From assembly GCA_009782175.1 (NCBI GenBank), contig WRKR01000004.1:1-64000 (forward strand): a stretch of 64,000 bases of DNA, written 5' to 3'. Positions within the stretch are counted from its first letter, which is position 1. The number at the start of each line of letters is the position of its first letter. The notes below the pieces were generated by a model that was not told the origin of the DNA, made no database searches, and saw only the letters and a list, made by a program, of their open reading frames with translations. Position numbers and translations under genes: made by a program. The DNA comes from Cystobacterineae bacterium (lineage in GTDB: Bacteria > Myxococcota > Myxococcia > Myxococcales > Myxococcaceae). Below are positions 24,422 through 32,477 of the stretch, one piece after another.

Positions 24422-26662
24422 ATGGCTGTGACATTTGAAACCGACAAAACAACCGACACCTCGCCCAGCCCCGAAGCCCAAACCACCTCGGAGCTTGCCT
24501 TGGCTGAAACCCCTGCTGAAGCCACTGCTGAAACCTCTGCTGAAGCCCCTGCTGAAACCTCTGCTGAAGCCACCTCATATGTGGCTGATGTGAGTTTTGA
24601 GTCCCTGGGGCTTTCCCAGGAGACACTCCGCGCTTTGGCGGAGCGCGGCTATCGCCAGCCTACACCGGTGCAAGCCCAGGCCTTTCAACCCGCCTTCCAG
24701 GGGAAGGATTTAATTGTACGCTCCAAAACAGGCACCGGAAAAACAGCCGCCTTCGGCCTGCCCCTGTTGGAGCGCATCCCCAAAGGCACATGTGAAACCG
24801 AAGCCCTCATTTTGTGCCCCACAAGAGAGTTGGCCTCCCAGGTGGCCACAGAGTTGGGAGCACTTTCTCAATACCGCGATATTCAAATTGCAGCCATTTA
24901 TGGTGGCGCCTCGATGAAGCTCCAAGAGGCTGCTCTCGAGAAGGGTGCCGCCATTGTTGTGGGCACCCCAGGGAGAATTCAGGACCATATGCGCCGTGGA
25001 AATTTAAAACTCCACAGCTGCCGCCACATTGTTTTGGACGAAGCCGATGAAATGCTGAACCAGGGCTTTTATGAGGAGGTAACCCATATTATTGAGGCGC
25101 TTCCTCCGGAGCGACAAGTGCTGCTGTTTTCAGCCACCGTCTCGGATGATATACGCAGGCTGATTATGCGGCATACGCATGAGCCGCAGACGCTTTTGCT
25201 TTCCAAGGATGTTTTTACCGTAGAGCACATCCACCACGTCCGCTATGATGTGGATGATGCCTTCCCCAAACCGCGCAACTTGCTTTATGTGCTTGAAATA
25301 GAGCAGCCTGAAAATGCCATCATCTTCTGCAATACCAGAGACGATACAGAGTTGGTGGTGGCCGTGCTCAACCGCAATGGCTTGGATGCGGAGCTGCTGA
25401 ACGGGGACTTGCCACAAAAAGAGCGCGAGCGCGTGATGGCCAAAGTGAAAAGCGGGGAGTTGGCTTTTATGGTGGCCACGGATTTGGCCGCGCGCGGAAT
25501 TGACATTTCGGACTTGGGGCACGTTATTAACTATTCCCTGCCGGAAGACCCTTCCGTCTATTTGCACCGCGTCGGACGCACCGGAAGAATTGGCAAAAAA
25601 GGCGTCGCCATTAACCTGGTTTCCGGAAGAGAGCTTTCCTCCTATTCCGCTTTGGAAAAAAAATATGGCATCCCCTTTGAAAAACGCCCCATGCCTGCAC
25701 CCCAAGTGGCCTTGGAAATGTGGACAGATCGCCACGTCCGCGAAATAAAAGAGGCCGCTTCCACCACCGTATATGAAGGCTTTTTGGGGCTTGCCACCGG
25801 ACTTAAACAAAGAAGCGATGCGGATGAGTTGGTTGCTTTCCTCTTGCGCTATTTCTTCTGGCACCAGCGAAAAACCAAAGCCCAGCAAAGCCAAGAAGAG
25901 CAACAAGCTTCCCCCAAGCATGCCCCCAAACACGCTCCTCATGAGGCTCAAAAAGGAAGAGAAAGCAGAGAAGGAAGAGACAGAAAAGGCAAAGAGCGCG
26001 GCCGCTCCAGAGACGAGCGCCGCCCTCCACGAGAAGCCCGCAACAGGCCACCTCGCCCACCTGCCGCAGCCATGCCTGCCCCTTTGGCCATGGTGGACAC
26101 GGAGAGCCTCGCCTCCTCTCCTGCCCCAAACCCGCCCCTTGAGGATACCGCTCCAACGGACAGCTGCCCCACAGAAAACCTTGCGCTGCTGGAGTCCACC
26201 CCTCCTGAAGAAACAACCCCTGCAACAAAAGGGAAACGCCACTTGTCCGACAGAGAGTTGTTTGAAGCCTTGCAGTCCGGCCAACCTCTCCCTTGGATAG
26301 AGGACCCGACGGTGGGCTCCAAAGAAGAGCACAGAGAACCCAGAGAACCCAGAGAGCCCAGAGAACACAGAGAGCGCAGCAGCAGACGCTCTGCCAAAAA
26401 ACAACGCCCCCAGGAGCCTCTGCCCGAGGGAATGGCTCGCCTGTGGATTAACTTGGGCACCCAAGAGTGTGGCACCGCAGAAAACTTCTGCGAGGCGCTC
26501 TCCCAAATAGGCGTTTCCACCGAGGCCTTCCAGCTTGTAGACTTGCACCCCAACTTCTCTTTCGTCCTCGTTGCAGAGGACAAAGCCGCCGACATGGAAA
26601 GCTTCACCGGCACAAAAATCCTCAACAAATCTCTCAAAATAGAGAGGGCCAAATGGAATTAG
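24422..26662 (+). CDS. DEAD-box RNA helicase with C-terminal DbpA-type RNA-binding domain
   Basis: This ATP-dependent helicase remodels RNA, for example in ribosome assembly or mRNA decay. Of 746 residues, 1-60 are acidic with EAxAET repeats. Motifs follow in order: Q motif (GYRQPTPVQAQAF), SKTGTGKT, PTRELASQ, DEADEML, SAT, TDLAARGIDI and HRVGRTGRIG. After residue 480 is a long charged linker with RERE-like and REPREPRE repeats. About 670-746 (MARLWINLGTQ...NFSFVLV) look like a DbpA RNA-binding domain. The organisation resembles CsdA/DeaD. A good ribosome site (gaagga) precedes the ATG. It is divergent from the sigma-factor gene and its stop overlaps that of ctpA. Confidence 0.93.
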   Translation: MAVTFETDKTTDTSPSPEAQTTSELALAETPAEATAETSAEAPAETSAEATSYVADVSFESLGLSQETLRALAERGYRQPTPVQAQAFQPAFQGKDLIVRSKTGTGKTAAFGLPLLERIPKGTCETEALILCPTRELASQVATELGALSQYRDIQIAAIYGGASMKLQEAALEKGAAIVVGTPGRIQDHMRRGNLKLHSCRHIVLDEADEMLNQGFYEEVTHIIEALPPERQVLLFSATVSDDIRRLIMRHTHEPQTLLLSKDVFTVEHIHHVRYDVDDAFPKPRNLLYVLEIEQPENAIIFCNTRDDTELVVAVLNRNGLDAELLNGDLPQKERERVMAKVKSGELAFMVATDLAARGIDISDLGHVINYSLPEDPSVYLHRVGRTGRIGKKGVAINLVSGRELSSYSALEKKYGIPFEKRPMPAPQVALEMWTDRHVREIKEAASTTVYEGFLGLATGLKQRSDADELVAFLLRYFFWHQRKTKAQQSQEEQQASPKHAPKHAPHEAQKGRESREGRDRKGKERGRSRDERRPPREARNRPPRPPAAAMPAPLAMVDTESLASSPAPNPPLEDTAPTDSCPTENLALLESTPPEETTPATKGKRHLSDRELFEALQSGQPLPWIEDPTVGSKEEHREPREPREPREHRERSSRRSAKKQRPQEPLPEGMARLWINLGTQECGTAENFCEALSQIGVSTEAFQLVDLHPNFSFVLVAEDKAADMESFTGTKILNKSLKIERAKWN

Positions 26663-27867
26663 GGCTTAGGTATACCCTCGCCAAAGCCCATGCTTTTTTT
26701 CAGCTTTGAAGGCCAGTTTTCCAGCCCTGTGCACCCTTTGGCCTGGTGGAAGTGGCAGTCCGGCAAAATGCCCTCTTTGTCAATTTTGGCACCTGTCAGC
26801 CGAATAAAATAGGCAACGGTTAAATAGATGGCGGAGCCGTCCGGCAAAAGCAGTTGCTCCTGAATGCTGCCTTTGCCATGGGTTTTTTCTCCCAACAGGC
26901 GAGCGCGTCCATTGTCTTTGAGGGCGGCTATTAATACCTCGGTGACGGAGGCGCTGTTTTCATCCATCAGCACCCACAGGGGAAGGCGGGTGGCGGTACC
27001 CTCAGGAGGAGAGGTGGTTTTCTCCAGCCTGGAGGGCCCAAGCTTAGGGCTTTGAATGTAGACAATGGGGCTTAGGGGCGGCAAAAAAAGGCTGGCCACG
27101 CCAAAGGCCTCTTGCAAAAGCCCCCCTAAATTTCCCCTTAAATCCAACACCAGGGAGCTGGGCTTCTGCGTTAAGGCCTCAGCAAAACGCTGGGAAAGCT
27201 CCAGGGCAACCCCCGGAGAAAAACGCGACAGGCGAATAACCCATATGGAGTCCACCCAATGGGTTTCCAAGGGAGAGCGCCGAAGCACAGCGCGCCTGAG
27301 GCGAAAATACAGAGGTTGGAATACGCCTTCCCTTTGGAGTTTTAAAACGGCTTGGCTGCCCACAGGCCCCACCAGCTGGCTTTGCACCTGGGCTGCCGAC
27401 AAGCCCTGCACAGGCAAGCCCTCCACCGCAAGCAACGCGTCCCCTTTGCGTATGCCTGCTTTATGCGCGGGTGAAGCCTCTTGTATGCTGAGCACCACCA
27501 GCCCCTGGGCGGACGCCTCAAGCCCCAAACCCAGCTCCCCCACCTCGGAGGCCTGCTCCAAACCCACCACCTCCGCGGCCGTCAAATAGCGGCTGCTGTT
27601 GTCTATTTCCCTCAGCATGCCGCGTATGGCCGCCTGCACCAAAAGCTCCACAGAGGGCTGTGTGGCAGCGCGGGACTCAATATGGTTGAGGGCGCGTGCA
27701 AGCACTTCCATTTGGCCATAGGCGGCCTCACTTGCCGCGTCCGCAGAAGGCCTTGCCGCTGCCCCAGCCAAACCCCCAAAGCCGCCAAAACCCAAAAAAC
27801 ACATAAAGCCAAGGCGCTTTATATAAGGCCTTGCTTGCGAGCAAACTCCCACCAAATACGCATGCAT
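26659..27867 (-). CDS. ctpA: Carboxyl-terminal processing protease (S41 family, CtpA-like)
   Basis: This exported serine protease trims or degrades envelope proteins, in several species peptidoglycan hydrolases or their regulators. A hydrophobic segment (LGFMCFLGFGGFGGLAGA) directs export. A PDZ domain spans about residues 80-160 (GLGLEASAQGLVVLSIQEASPA..AGIRKGDALL). The catalytic core has the nucleophile in DENSASVTE and the Lys in KTHGKGSIQ. I use the ATG with ggga upstream; this overlaps the preceding hydrolase gene by 49 bases. It is the last gene of the ftsE-ftsX-envC operon, so wall-hydrolase control is a reasonable inferred role. Confidence 0.9.
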   Translation of the reverse strand: MHAYLVGVCSQARPYIKRLGFMCFLGFGGFGGLAGAAARPSADAASEAAYGQMEVLARALNHIESRAATQPSVELLVQAAIRGMLREIDNSSRYLTAAEVVGLEQASEVGELGLGLEASAQGLVVLSIQEASPAHKAGIRKGDALLAVEGLPVQGLSAAQVQSQLVGPVGSQAVLKLQREGVFQPLYFRLRRAVLRRSPLETHWVDSIWVIRLSRFSPGVALELSQRFAEALTQKPSSLVLDLRGNLGGLLQEAFGVASLFLPPLSPIVYIQSPKLGPSRLEKTTSPPEGTATRLPLWVLMDENSASVTEVLIAALKDNGRARLLGEKTHGKGSIQEQLLLPDGSAIYLTVAYFIRLTGAKIDKEGILPDCHFHQAKGCTGLENWPSKLKKSMGFGEGIPKP

Positions 27868-28676
27868 TTTTTTGGGCTCTCCCATTGCGGCATGTGGCCA
27901 AACCCCTGCACCTCTAACAGCACTGCCCCCTTCGGCAAATGCTCTCGAAAATATTCAATACCCCCATAGGGGAGCAACTTCTCCAATGCCCCCCATATAA
28001 GCAAAGTGGGCATGTTCAGCTTTTTCAGCGTTTCAGGCTCCAAACAACGCTCCATGCCGCCCTCTCGCACAAGGCGCACCGCCGGCAGGTTAAACATGGG
28101 GACAAAACACCTCGCAAACCATTCGGCATACCAGGGGGTACGCACAAACAGGCGCCGAAGCAATGCGCGCGCCTGGCGCGCATTCTGCACATTATACAGC
28201 TTGCAGAGCCCCTTCGCCTCTTCTGCACTCATGCGCGCACCCGCCGGCGCCCACAGGCAAAGCGCTCGCACCTGCTGAGGCACTTGGGAGGCCACTTGGG
28301 CCGCCAAAGCCCCTCCCATGGAGTTGCCAAATAAAAAAACAGGCTGCTTCACCTCTTTGGAGAGAAAGGCTTCTATTAACTCTACCATGGACTCCAGGGG
28401 CATGGGCCCTTGGGGGGGCAAGGGAGAAAAACCATAGCCCGGCAAATCCAAAGCATAGACGGCGCTGAGCTTTTGGGCCAAAGAGGAAAATACTTTGGCA
28501 TAGCTGAGCCCATAGGCCCCCAAACCATGCAACAACAGCGCTGGCGGCCCCCCTCCCTTGCCCTGCTTGGCATAAAGCTGCACACGGTGTCCCCCCAACT
28601 CTATTTTGAGGGGGCAAATGCCACGCAGCCGCCCCACGGCTTTGCTCCAATGCTTATATAGGTGAAAAACACTCAT
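27819..28676 (-). CDS. Alpha/beta-fold hydrolase
   Basis: The 285-residue protein has the classic alpha/beta hydrolase layout: oxyanion region LLLHGLGAYGLSY, LDLPGYGFS, nucleophile in FGNSMGGALA, an acidic region after LLIWGALEKLLP, and catalytic His in GFGHMPQWESP. It resembles small esterases and lipases of the MhpC/monoacylglycerol-lipase type. There is no signal peptide, so it is probably cytoplasmic. A good Shine-Dalgarno sequence (gaggg) sets the start. It is inserted between envC and ctpA in a cell-wall operon and shares 49 bases with ctpA. The substrate is unknown. Confidence 0.8.
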   Translation of the reverse strand: MSVFHLYKHWSKAVGRLRGICPLKIELGGHRVQLYAKQGKGGGPPALLLHGLGAYGLSYAKVFSSLAQKLSAVYALDLPGYGFSPLPPQGPMPLESMVELIEAFLSKEVKQPVFLFGNSMGGALAAQVASQVPQQVRALCLWAPAGARMSAEEAKGLCKLYNVQNARQARALLRRLFVRTPWYAEWFARCFVPMFNLPAVRLVREGGMERCLEPETLKKLNMPTLLIWGALEKLLPYGGIEYFREHLPKGAVLLEVQGFGHMPQWESPKKCMRIWWEFARKQGLI

Positions 28677-28752
28677 GCCAACCCTCACAGTTTTTTGCCG
28701 CGCTGCCCCGCCCTCATGCGCAGAAACTTTGTTGAAAACCCCACAAAACAGC

Positions 28753-29877
28753 CTAGCGGAAACCCGCTTGCACAAACCACTCCATGGGGTTTTGGGCCAG
28801 GCCTTGCTGGCGTATTTCAAAATAAAGCCATGCCCCTGCAGGTTGTGCCTCTCCCACAGTCCCCAGCCAGCTCCCCTGCTCTATCCACTCACCCGCTTTT
28901 ATGAATATTTCCCCCAAATGCGCAACCAAAGTGTGGTAGCCGCCCCCATGCTCCATAATAATAAGCCTGCCAAAACCTTTGAGCTCCCCTGTATATACCA
29001 CCTTGCCTGAGGCAACGGCCCTGACGCGGCTGCCCCTTGCCGCCCGAATGCTGATGCCCTTATGCTGCGTTAAAGTATTGGATTGGGGGTTAACAACAAA
29101 GCCAAAAGGCCTCTCCACAAAACCAAACAAAGGGGGATAAAGCCTCCCCTTCCATAACGCCAGGGAGGGCTCCTCTTCCAGGGAAGCCCATACTATAGCT
29201 GGGGCTATAGCTGAAGCTGTGCCTGGGGCTGCTCCTCTTGCTGCTCCTGGAGCGCTATTTTTAAAGGGGTGTTTATAAGAGAGAGAGGGAGAGGGAGAGC
29301 CCATATCCGGCAATGCCGTCAGGGCATTGGTTAACCCCAGGTTATGCAACCGTATTTTTTCTGAAACCCGCTCAAATTGCGCATGGGTATGCCTTAAGTT
29401 GGCTTGGAGCTGCAAAAGGCGCTGGTGCCGCACCCGCAAGGCCTGCGCCTCCTGGGAGAGGTGGTGCTGCCGCTCCTGGCATTTTTGGAGCAAAGCCTGA
29501 AGCTTGTGGGTAGCCACGGCCCACTCGCTGGGGGCTCTCCCGGCGCGCAAAGCCGCTGCACCTTGCACACCCAGCTTGCGCATGAGGGGGTGGTATTGGC
29601 GGCACTCCTGGGCAAGCTTTCGTATTTTTTGCGCGTTTTGCTCTTGTGCCCACTGGTTTTCCACATGGCTTTCATGCCAATGCTTGGTGCTGGCTTCCGC
29701 CTCCCCCCTCAAGCCCAAAAGCTGAAACTGCAGGTGCTCTGCAAAACCCAACTCGGCCTCCAGGGCCTGCCGCTGGGCCTTCAGGGCCTGCTGCGCAAAC
29801 AAGGCTTGTGGCTCCCCCCCCCCAGGGCTGACAAAGCTATAGAGGGCCCACCACCCCCACCAGGCTAGGCCCAGCAT
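28753..29877 (-). CDS. EnvC-like LytM-domain protein (predicted non-catalytic amidase activator)
   Basis: EnvC proteins bind FtsX and switch on cell-wall amidases at division. This 374-residue protein has one N-terminal membrane or signal segment (LAWWGWWALYSFV), a long coiled coil (about 30-190) and a C-terminal M23/LytM fold (about 255-370: RPFGFVVNP, THKGISI-like block, RAVASGKVVYTGELKGFGRLIIMEHGGGYHTLVAHLG, LYFEIRQQG). In active M23 peptidases the first motif is HxxxD; here it reads HKGIS, so the metal-binding Asp is missing, as in E. coli EnvC. It overlaps ftsX by 13 bases. Confidence 0.85.
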   Translation of the reverse strand: MLGLAWWGWWALYSFVSPGGGEPQALFAQQALKAQRQALEAELGFAEHLQFQLLGLRGEAEASTKHWHESHVENQWAQEQNAQKIRKLAQECRQYHPLMRKLGVQGAAALRAGRAPSEWAVATHKLQALLQKCQERQHHLSQEAQALRVRHQRLLQLQANLRHTHAQFERVSEKIRLHNLGLTNALTALPDMGSPSPSLSYKHPFKNSAPGAARGAAPGTASAIAPAIVWASLEEEPSLALWKGRLYPPLFGFVERPFGFVVNPQSNTLTQHKGISIRAARGSRVRAVASGKVVYTGELKGFGRLIIMEHGGGYHTLVAHLGEIFIKAGEWIEQGSWLGTVGEAQPAGAWLYFEIRQQGLAQNPMEWFVQAGFR

Positions 29878-30689
29878 GTATGGCCCCTGATAAGCCAGGC
29901 CAACAAGGCCCCCGCTGCCCCCAGGGCTGTGGCCTGTGCCACCAACGCAGAGAGGAAAATGGAAAACTCAGGGGAGCCCCACAGGTGCACGGCCAGCTGC
30001 CCACCTATATAGGCGCATGCCCCCGCGAGGGCTGCCCACAGGAGCCCTTGTGCAAACCATATAGCTCGCACCTGCCTGAGGCTTGCCCCCAACCCCAAAA
30101 GTACCCTTAAGTGTTGGGCCTCCTCGTTAAAACAGCCCAGGGAGAGTGCCCCCAGGGCCAAGCCCATGCTGAGGGAGAAAAAAGCAAAGAGGGTATAGCG
30201 CAGCCAGGGCAAGGCCACCTGCGGAAGGGGTGTAGCCCAATAGGCCTGCTCTATAAGGCTTGTTTTCTCCAGGTGTATGCGCAACTGTTTGGCCAACTCA
30301 GCGGAAAGCCCTCGCCAATGCAACTCGGCTGCAAAGCCTATGTCCGCCACCCCTTCGAGCCCTAACTCCTCGGGGAAATGGCCAAGCTTGGCCAAAAAAC
30401 GCTGAGCGTCCGCCCACACATGTGCAGGCTCCCTGAGTATACTGCTTTGGGGGGGCGGCAATGTTTTTAAAAAGGGGTGTATATCGGACTCGCCTACCCC
30501 AGGTTTAAACAACAAGGTTAAGGCGGTAGCTTGCCTTGCCTTGTGGGTATGGCTTTCAACCAGCAGAGCCAACTCCCAGCCCAAAAGCCCCAGGCCTATG
30601 GCGCTTGCCCAGGCCAGGCGCCACCACCCTGTGTGGCGCAGGCAATGGAAAAATATTTTTGCCCATAACCCCAGGGCCCTAGGCCGCAT
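29865..30689 (-). CDS. ftsX: Cell-division ABC-type protein FtsX
   Basis: FtsX is the membrane half of FtsEX, which links cytoplasmic division signals to periplasmic wall hydrolases. The 274 residues show one N-terminal membrane helix (LAWASAIGLGLLGWELALLV), a periplasmic domain (about 45-155) and three C-terminal helices (YTLFAFFSLSMGLALGALSLG, QGLLWAALAGACAYIGG, FLSALVAQATALGAAGALLAWL). The start has an excellent ggagg ribosome site and overlaps ftsE by 11 bases. The family call rests on topology and on the ftsE-ftsX-envC order. Confidence 0.82.
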   Translation of the reverse strand: MRPRALGLWAKIFFHCLRHTGWWRLAWASAIGLGLLGWELALLVESHTHKARQATALTLLFKPGVGESDIHPFLKTLPPPQSSILREPAHVWADAQRFLAKLGHFPEELGLEGVADIGFAAELHWRGLSAELAKQLRIHLEKTSLIEQAYWATPLPQVALPWLRYTLFAFFSLSMGLALGALSLGCFNEEAQHLRVLLGLGASLRQVRAIWFAQGLLWAALAGACAYIGGQLAVHLWGSPEFSIFLSALVAQATALGAAGALLAWLIRGHTCWA

Positions 30690-31326
30690 AGAGAGAGCCT
30701 CCCTCAAGCCGCAGGCGCCTGTGTGCCCCCCCAAAGCCAGCTTGCCCCGCCACCACAACGGTGGCCCCCCCCCGGTGGTATTGCCGCAAAATGCTGAGCC
30801 AGTGTTTTAACTCCGTACGCTCCATGCCGTCCATACAAGCATCCACCAGCAGCATGCGCGGCATGCGGATGAGTGCGCGCGCCAACACAAGGCGCAGCCT
30901 TTGCGAGGGGAGCAGCTGTTGAGGCTTTTGGCGCCACAGGCCTTCCAAGCCTACAAAAGCCAATGTTTCCATACATTGTTTCTGTTTTTGTGGGCTAGAG
31001 GGTTGGGCAATGTCCACAGCCAGGCGCAGGTTGTCTTTGAGGTTGAGTTTGGGGAGAAACCCATCCGTGGGGGTGATATAAACAAGCCGCCGCAGGCGCG
31101 CAAAATTCCGTATATGGGGCAGGTCGTGTATTTCCATGCCATCCACCACCATTTGCCCTTGGGTGGGCGTCTCCCAAAGCCCCATGAGGCGGAGCAAAGT
31201 GGTTTTCCCCGCACCTGCCACACCCTCTATGGCCACAAACTCCCCCTTGTGTATGCTTAAGTTAATGTTGGAGAGTGTCTGGGGCTGCTTGGGGCCATGT
31301 TTAAAAACACGCAACATTTGTACCAT
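30679..31326 (-). CDS. ftsE: FtsE-like ABC ATPase with degenerate catalytic motifs
   Basis: FtsE is the cytoplasmic partner of FtsX. The 215-residue protein keeps Walker A (GVAGAGKT, residues 35-42). The other hallmarks are altered: the Q-loop Gln is not seen in VYITPTDGF; the signature LSGGE/Q is LLPSQ (138-142); Walker B is MLLVDACMDG, with the catalytic Glu replaced by Ala163; the D-loop is GMER; and the H-loop His is replaced by Gln195 (VVVAGQAG). It may bind ATP but should hydrolyse it poorly or not at all. A run of nine G residues on the coding strand encodes HRGGA near residue 186, yet the downstream frame still matches the family, so there is no frameshift. Confidence 0.85.
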   Translation of the reverse strand: MVQMLRVFKHGPKQPQTLSNINLSIHKGEFVAIEGVAGAGKTTLLRLMGLWETPTQGQMVVDGMEIHDLPHIRNFARLRRLVYITPTDGFLPKLNLKDNLRLAVDIAQPSSPQKQKQCMETLAFVGLEGLWRQKPQQLLPSQRLRLVLARALIRMPRMLLVDACMDGMERTELKHWLSILRQYHRGGATVVVAGQAGFGGAHRRLRLEGGSLYAA

Positions 31327-31448: not shown

Positions 31449-32477
31449 TCAGGCAGAAAACAAAAACTGTCCTTTTTCTGTGGTGCGTTGGAGTTGGCCA
31501 TTTTTCTCCAGCACCTCCAGGGCGGCCAGCACGCCGGAAAGCATGGGCCACATGCGTATAGCGTCTATGCGTATAAACAGGTGGTTCATCAGCTCGCGCA
31601 CCGTCATGGGTTTGGTTTTCAACAGGCCCAGCAGTTTTTGTCCGCGCTGCTCATAAAAAGCCAAGAGGGCATTCAGCAAAGGGCCATGGCCCACAAAGGC
31701 GGTACCGTGGCCAGGGAGTATAGCCCCAAAAGGCATGTGGGCCAGGCGTTGGGCTGAGGCCATATATTCTACCAGGGGGAGGAATTTGGTTTCTGCTTCG
31801 CCCATGGACAAATCCAAAAAGGGTGCGGGGGCCATGCGCTCCAATATGTGGTCGTCCGAAAACAAAAAGTTGGGCTCCTTGGCCCACAAGCAGACAAGGC
31901 CTGCGCTATGTCCGGGGGCGTGTATAATTTCCCCGGAAAATTTTGCAAAGGGGAATACCTCGCCGGCTTCCATGGTGCACAGCCGCTCCCTGGCTATGGG
32001 GGGAGCAAATATTTCGGCGCCTTTAAAGCTGCGCTTCATCTCCTCCAGCTCTCGTGGGGCAATGCCCAGTTTCAGCATATAGTCACCATGCGCATAGAGG
32101 ACGGCTGTCCAGTCTGAGGGCAGCACCACTTTGGCGGCATCTGCGGGGTGCACATATATTTTGGCACCTGAGCGTGCGGCCACGGCCTCGGCGGCGCCAT
32201 AATGGTCCACATGCGCGTGGGAGATGAAAATGCGGCTCACTTTGTCCAGGGCAAGGCCTTTGGCGGAGGCTGTTTTCAGCAGATGTGCCAGGGCAGGAGG
32301 TGTGCCAAAGCCACAATCCCACAAGCTTAAGCTGCCGTCGGCATTCTCAATGGCATATACATTGGCGGGGCCCCCTGTGTCCTCAAAGGGCACGGGCACT
32401 TCCAGGCGCACAATGCCAAAGTCCGCAAGGTGGGCCTCATTCCAGGGCGAGGTTTTGCCTTCCCAAAAGGCTGTCAT
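31449..32477 (-). CDS. MBL-fold metallo-hydrolase (glyoxalase II-like)
   Basis: The 342-residue cytoplasmic protein has the metal-binding motif HAHVDHYGA, further ligands in HAPGHSAGLVCLW and LFSDDHIL, and GHGTAF. A C-terminal helical or winged-helix-like region (about 260-342, MTVRELMNHLF...AALEVLEKNGQL) follows the core, as in several LACTB2/glyoxalase-like hydrolases. It overlaps the etfA stop (ATGA), so it is co-expressed with the electron-transfer flavoprotein. A thioester substrate from acyl-CoA metabolism is plausible but unproved. Confidence 0.82.
   Translation of the reverse strand: MTAFWEGKTSPWNEAHLADFGIVRLEVPVPFEDTGGPANVYAIENADGSLSLWDCGFGTPPALAHLLKTASAKGLALDKVSRIFISHAHVDHYGAAEAVAARSGAKIYVHPADAAKVVLPSDWTAVLYAHGDYMLKLGIAPRELEEMKRSFKGAEIFAPPIARERLCTMEAGEVFPFAKFSGEIIHAPGHSAGLVCLWAKEPNFLFSDDHILERMAPAPFLDLSMGEAETKFLPLVEYMASAQRLAHMPFGAILPGHGTAFVGHGPLLNALLAFYEQRGQKLLGLLKTKPMTVRELMNHLFIRIDAIRMWPMLSGVLAALEVLEKNGQLQRTTEKGQFLFSA

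Follow-up and report, generated by a model that had tools for sequence, protein, structure and literature searches.

FtsEX of the window, the whole stretch of 64,000 nucleotides analyzed (contig WRKR01000004.1), would act as a hydrolysis-independent tether positioning a constitutively open EnvC, ftsE having been made a pseudo-ATPase on the stem of the genus; this reading, drawn from sequence comparison, is considered somewhat probable. New here are an apparent rewiring of FtsX and a predicted loss of the EnvC arm alongside FtsE degeneration, the FtsEX-EnvC system itself being already known. In the open-licence papers searched, a natural FtsE without catalytic motifs was nowhere described.

The FtsE-derived ABC protein is encoded at 30679..31326 on the minus strand (215 amino acids, ATG start). 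All genes of the module lie on this strand, with the conserved upstream neighbor, an MBL-fold hydrolase (31449..32477 (-)), being 74% identical in both congeners. FtsE is followed by an FtsX-like permease (29865..30689 (-)), an EnvC-like amidase activator (28753..29877 (-)), an alpha/beta hydrolase that is conserved at this place in the family's module (27819..28820 (-)), and the conserved last gene, a CtpA-type S41 protease (26659..27885 (-)). Where checked, gene order in the family was EtfA-MBL-FtsE-FtsX-EnvC-hydrolase-CtpA, as in the window, which makes the two operons orthologous by position. The arrangement of FtsE and EnvC was the same in 19 of the 20 relatives read, mostly with the hydrolase and CtpA downstream, and in some with MBL or EtfA upstream. 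The ftsE ortholog of G001, the sole other genus member where the gene was found, had the same neighbors, spread over two contigs, and the overlap of 11 nt between ftsE and ftsX was identical in both species. CtpA was unusually fast-evolving in the genus, lying about 3.5 times as far from the family as family members lie from one another, with the Ser and Lys motifs kept.

By operon position, the gene in the window is taken here as a degenerate descendant of FtsE. The Pfam ABC_tran match was 73 bits, and the best NCBIfam family was FtsE (TIGR02673) with 118 bits, below the equivalog cut-off of 264.85 bits. The tree gave FtsE of the window no placement because of the length of its stem branch (about 4.8 substitutions per site vs. 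about 1.0 between the two species). With this very long stem, the AU test rejected neither an FtsE clade including the window (p = 0.55 and p = 0.39) nor the family clade (p = 0.37). An AlphaFold model of FtsE from two sequences had a pLDDT of 42.

Motifs were read from an alignment that contained, besides FtsE of E. coli, 63 rows from relatives, with 43 unique sequences among them; the survey of FtsE extended to the phylum of the window genome. Walker A (GVAGAGKTT, with its G, K and T residues) and the Walker B Asp (D162) were retained in both species. In FtsE of the window, the LSGG signature was replaced by LLPS (LLPSQ for LSGGQ) and Q143 by R, and Q86 of the Q-loop was gone, with P or T in its place depending on gap placement. 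The catalytic Glu E163 was replaced by A, D169 of the D-loop by E, and H195 of the H-loop by Q, and the A-loop aromatic residue was Gly. The original prediction, made from the sequence without database searches, had named a kept Walker A, LLPSQ, Ala for the catalytic Glu, no clear Q-loop Gln and Gln at the H-loop; all of these were correct, and the Walker B Asp is kept too.

FtsE may still bind ATP. A switch gated by occupancy of FtsE rather than by hydrolysis, with ATP held by the P-loop and the Walker B Asp and acting on FtsX and EnvC, is a rather unlikely reading, less likely than the tether. Retention of Walker A and D162 in both species, against a background retention of about 36%, agrees with it. 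However, the signature and the D-loop that form the ATP-bound dimer were lost, the A-loop aromatic residue was lost in FtsE of the window, and the P-loop may be retained for folding alone.

FtsE of G001 (WQTM01000164.1; MAG Co191P4bin16, from a Cornitermes termite gut, the prefix Co standing for Cornitermes sp. [PMC7886697]) was 60% identical to that of the window. It lacked the Q-loop Gln, had LLAP as its signature, R at Q143, G at E163, E at D169 and R at H195, and kept D162. Because G001 carries the same losses, FtsE of the window is not a sequence error; an error or frameshift in ftsE was ruled out on this ground, and the objection of a local error, which comparison with related genomes was expected to settle, fails. 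Among other genera, the 63 rows from relatives and two sequences read separately were all canonical at the catalytic and dimer sites. The canonical rows spanned every other genus of the family (24 of 25) except g25, which gave no FtsE match. Identity was at least 64% among FtsE of other family members, whereas FtsE of the window was 32% identical to family FtsE.

Family-invariant FtsE columns survived in both species at 43 of 118 positions. Both species had lost 59 positions, and the same new residue was found at 33 of these 59, from which the common ancestor was already degenerate and the loss predates the species split. In 96 genomes of the family and 195 of the phylum, no third copy came anywhere close in score to the two already known, and a contig scan for further degenerate FtsE returned the known congener and two distant ABC proteins, and nothing else. 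The degenerate module is thus known from two genomes. In the third congener, G002 (88% complete), the contig ended 42 nt past the MBL gene, just before the expected ftsE start (L076, G002:C86, 5293-5335), and nothing in the assembly closely matched the FtsE, FtsX, EnvC or CtpA of this module, through either a gap or true loss.

The ftsE gene changed in a burst along the stem of the genus and has since been under strong purifying selection. Third-position divergence between ftsE of the window and of G001 was 56%, with a dN of 0.34 and a saturated dS. In neutral simulation at that divergence, expected identity was 16% vs. 60% observed, and the frame stayed open in about 0.1% of cases. Chance is thereby ruled out as the cause of the intact frame. 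The open frame at 30679-31326 bears out the intact reading frame initially described. The P-loop core was retained at 6 of 7 positions vs. 37 of 111 elsewhere (p = 0.009), and the set of catalytic and dimer positions at 0 of 8 (p = 0.02); both are small tests with sets named after looking.

A decaying module, in which genome reduction makes FtsEX unneeded and ftsE and ftsX are heading for loss, is accordingly rather unlikely. The genome of the window is small (2.7 Mb; 2.1-2.7 Mb in G000, G001 and G002 of the genus vs. 4-13 Mb in other family members), acceleration within the module is strongest in FtsE and FtsX, and the module was not found in G002, all of which agree with decay. Purifying selection on ftsE argues against simple decay, however, as do the losses being shared and settled before the species split, the conserved ftsE/ftsX overlap and the preferential keeping of the P-loop. 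The same genome sizes mark the genus as a strongly reduced lineage, with at least one member from a termite gut, and the organism is a relative of the myxobacteria with a small genome that probably dwells in a gut.

FtsX is, as far as its sequence can be compared, rewired in parallel with FtsE. The permease has 274 amino acids counted from an ATG, the open reading frame as called beginning at an upstream TTG (30758), and was assigned from position, topology and a sub-threshold Pfam match (20.9 bits, E = 3.8e-4; gathering threshold 25.5). It was 19% identical to family FtsX, kept 9 of 60 family-invariant residues in both congeners, and had its cytoplasmic EIEIQKLVGA motif replaced. Hydropathy indicated TM1, a loop of about 120 amino acids and then two segments; of the four TM helices expected in FtsX, with a large periplasmic loop after TM1, the fourth did not stand out by this method. 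The resemblance of LGLGASLRQVRAIWFAQGLLW and KLVGATDRFVKAPFLIEGLLQ and the gene position agree with FtsX identity. A family FtsX profile did not separate FtsX of the window from shuffled sequences, and a PDB search with it gave no match.

EnvC of the window (374 amino acids) has an N-terminal hydrophobic segment, a coiled-coil hairpin, a linker and a degenerate LytM domain with YFEIR. The LytM/M23 domain (28756..29148 (-); Pfam M23 match of 86 bits) had lost the HxxxD and HxH zinc ligands (HKGIS and WLYFE in their place), as in E. coli EnvC (4bh5), so the LytM partner was rightly called non-catalytic. The domain was 48% identical to the family, with the activator face LYFEIRQQGLAQNPMEWF kept and the LYFEIR..G.A.NP..W pattern retained. 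E. coli EnvC likewise combines a coiled coil with a non-catalytic LytM domain, its face reading LYFEIRRQG.A.NP..W.

By alignment, EnvC has lost its helical restraining arm and kept the putative amidase-activating LytM face. A linker rich in Pro, Ala, Gly and Ser (approximately residues 188-243; 29149..29316 (-)) sits where the family and E. coli have the helical arm. The distance from the helix end to LytM was 63 amino acids in the window and at least 18 in G001, vs. 0-14 in relatives with the module, and the gap was filled by flexible Pro/Ala/Gly or Gly/Glu sequence. Residues that align with the beginning of the arm in E. coli were absent in the genus and present in relatives, the arm of the relatives being matched to that of E. 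coli (222-278) by alignment alone. Single-sequence AlphaFold of EnvC of the window placed helices at 21-111 and 117-187, followed by disorder, with scores of about 70-83 for the helices and a poor LytM. In E. coli EnvC, unlike that of the window, the arm is present; it is autoinhibitory, blocking the amidase-binding groove, and its release is thought to be due to the FtsEX cycle (PMC7668044). The EnvC N-terminus (window 29800-29877 (-); L077 3150-3226 (-)) was hydrophobic, without initial positive charges or an AxA-type cleavage site. The signal peptides of relatives differ in this respect, and EnvC of the genus may thus stay membrane-anchored.

FtsA, FtsQ and FtsZ with its C-terminal peptide were present in the genome, together with two Amidase_3 enzymes with intact active-site motifs. 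A LysM-M23 protein of the NlpD type was found in G002, with a homologous M23 match in the genome of the window. Downstream of one amidase, a putative surface protein (L110 2438-3634; G000:C14) carried a GYIFLGWNTAADGSGTPF-type repeat that by eye resembles the InlB / Listeria-Bacteroides kind. A repurposed ABC pair that has left division for some other role in the envelope, together with EnvC and CtpA, is improbable: FtsX is nearly unrecognizable and CtpA evolves fast too, but the operon persists, EnvC retains its LytM activator face, and the amidases remain.

No other ftsE was found among the ABC proteins of the own genome (99.95% complete), where a second canonical copy had been proposed as a check, and the other ABC ATPases of that genome keep their motifs. 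The three best matches to the FtsE model (200, 193 and 188 bits) were considered as a second ftsE and rejected, being canonical, LolD/MacB-like and under the FtsE cut-off. In known ABC transporters, a degenerate NBD is often paired with a canonical one, yet continued ATP hydrolysis in such a heterodimer or by substitute residues is very improbable, since no second ABC gene adjoins ftsE, the remaining NBDs of the genome resemble those of LolD/MacB/Mla-type and other systems (assigned by motif and sequence), and the Glu position has no conserved acidic residue (Ala/Gly). FtsE resembles the degenerate NBDs of heterodimeric ABC transporters in having lost the catalytic Glu and signature residues and kept Walker A. 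Those transporters, unlike FtsE, have a canonical NBD partner and lose one of two sites; as no canonical partner was found for FtsE, an FtsE homodimer would have neither site active.

The tether remains the preferred reading. The ftsE gene of an ancestral ftsE-ftsX-envC-hydrolase-ctpA operon would have turned into a pseudo-ATPase on the genus stem, losing the residues of the ATP sandwich dimer and of hydrolysis, with the P-loop and the Walker B Asp remaining; the ATP-driven cycle of opening and closing would have ended with this loss. A static FtsEX, nucleotide-bound or not, would then hold EnvC, constitutively open, at the septum, and amidase activation would be set by the placement and amount of EnvC, independently of ATP turnover. 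Without a brake on EnvC, ATP-driven release would no longer have a purpose. The static scaffold put forward in the original prediction is supported, and is strengthened by the apparent arm loss in EnvC and rewiring of FtsX.

The system is like E. coli FtsEX-EnvC, which activates AmiA and AmiB, in its trio of FtsE, FtsX and EnvC and in the presence of amidases, FtsA and FtsZ, whereas in E. coli FtsE the ABC motifs are complete and full function requires hydrolysis. The earlier statement that amidase activation by FtsEX depends on ATP hydrolysis was too strong, since ATPase-dead FtsEX can suffice in E. coli: it recruits EnvC and lets cells separate, provided that it is uncoupled from FtsA and that the cell has the NlpD pathway (PMC7343993). 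Otherwise, dead FtsE blocks septal synthesis in E. coli, through FtsA (PMC7343993). A close comparison is E. coli FtsE(D162N)X (PMC7343993), which hydrolyzes no ATP and with which EnvC recruitment is possible, a dead state presumed here as well. FtsE(D162N)X was, however, made in the laboratory and arrests division as long as FtsA stays coupled, whereas the presumed dead state of the window is natural and fixed in the lineage. Because dead FtsEX blocks septal synthesis and free LytM is toxic in E. coli, further compensating changes would be needed in this genus.

The purpose of ATP hydrolysis by FtsEX has been called unclear (PMC7343993). A lineage with a dead-looking ATPase, a rewired permease and a missing EnvC brake would be an evolutionary double mutant, through which the role of FtsEX ATP hydrolysis becomes testable. 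The model predicts that removal of the EnvC arm, and of the coupling to FtsA, makes FtsE catalysis dispensable. It is proposed tentatively, at slightly less than even confidence, that the FtsEX-EnvC switch was naturally converted across the genus to a hydrolysis-free tether by joint loss of FtsE catalysis and of the EnvC arm, and that this conversion would show ATP turnover to serve mainly in relieving the inhibition of EnvC (and FtsA). If this is true, ATP turnover by FtsEX would be dispensable once the inhibition of EnvC (and FtsA) is gone.
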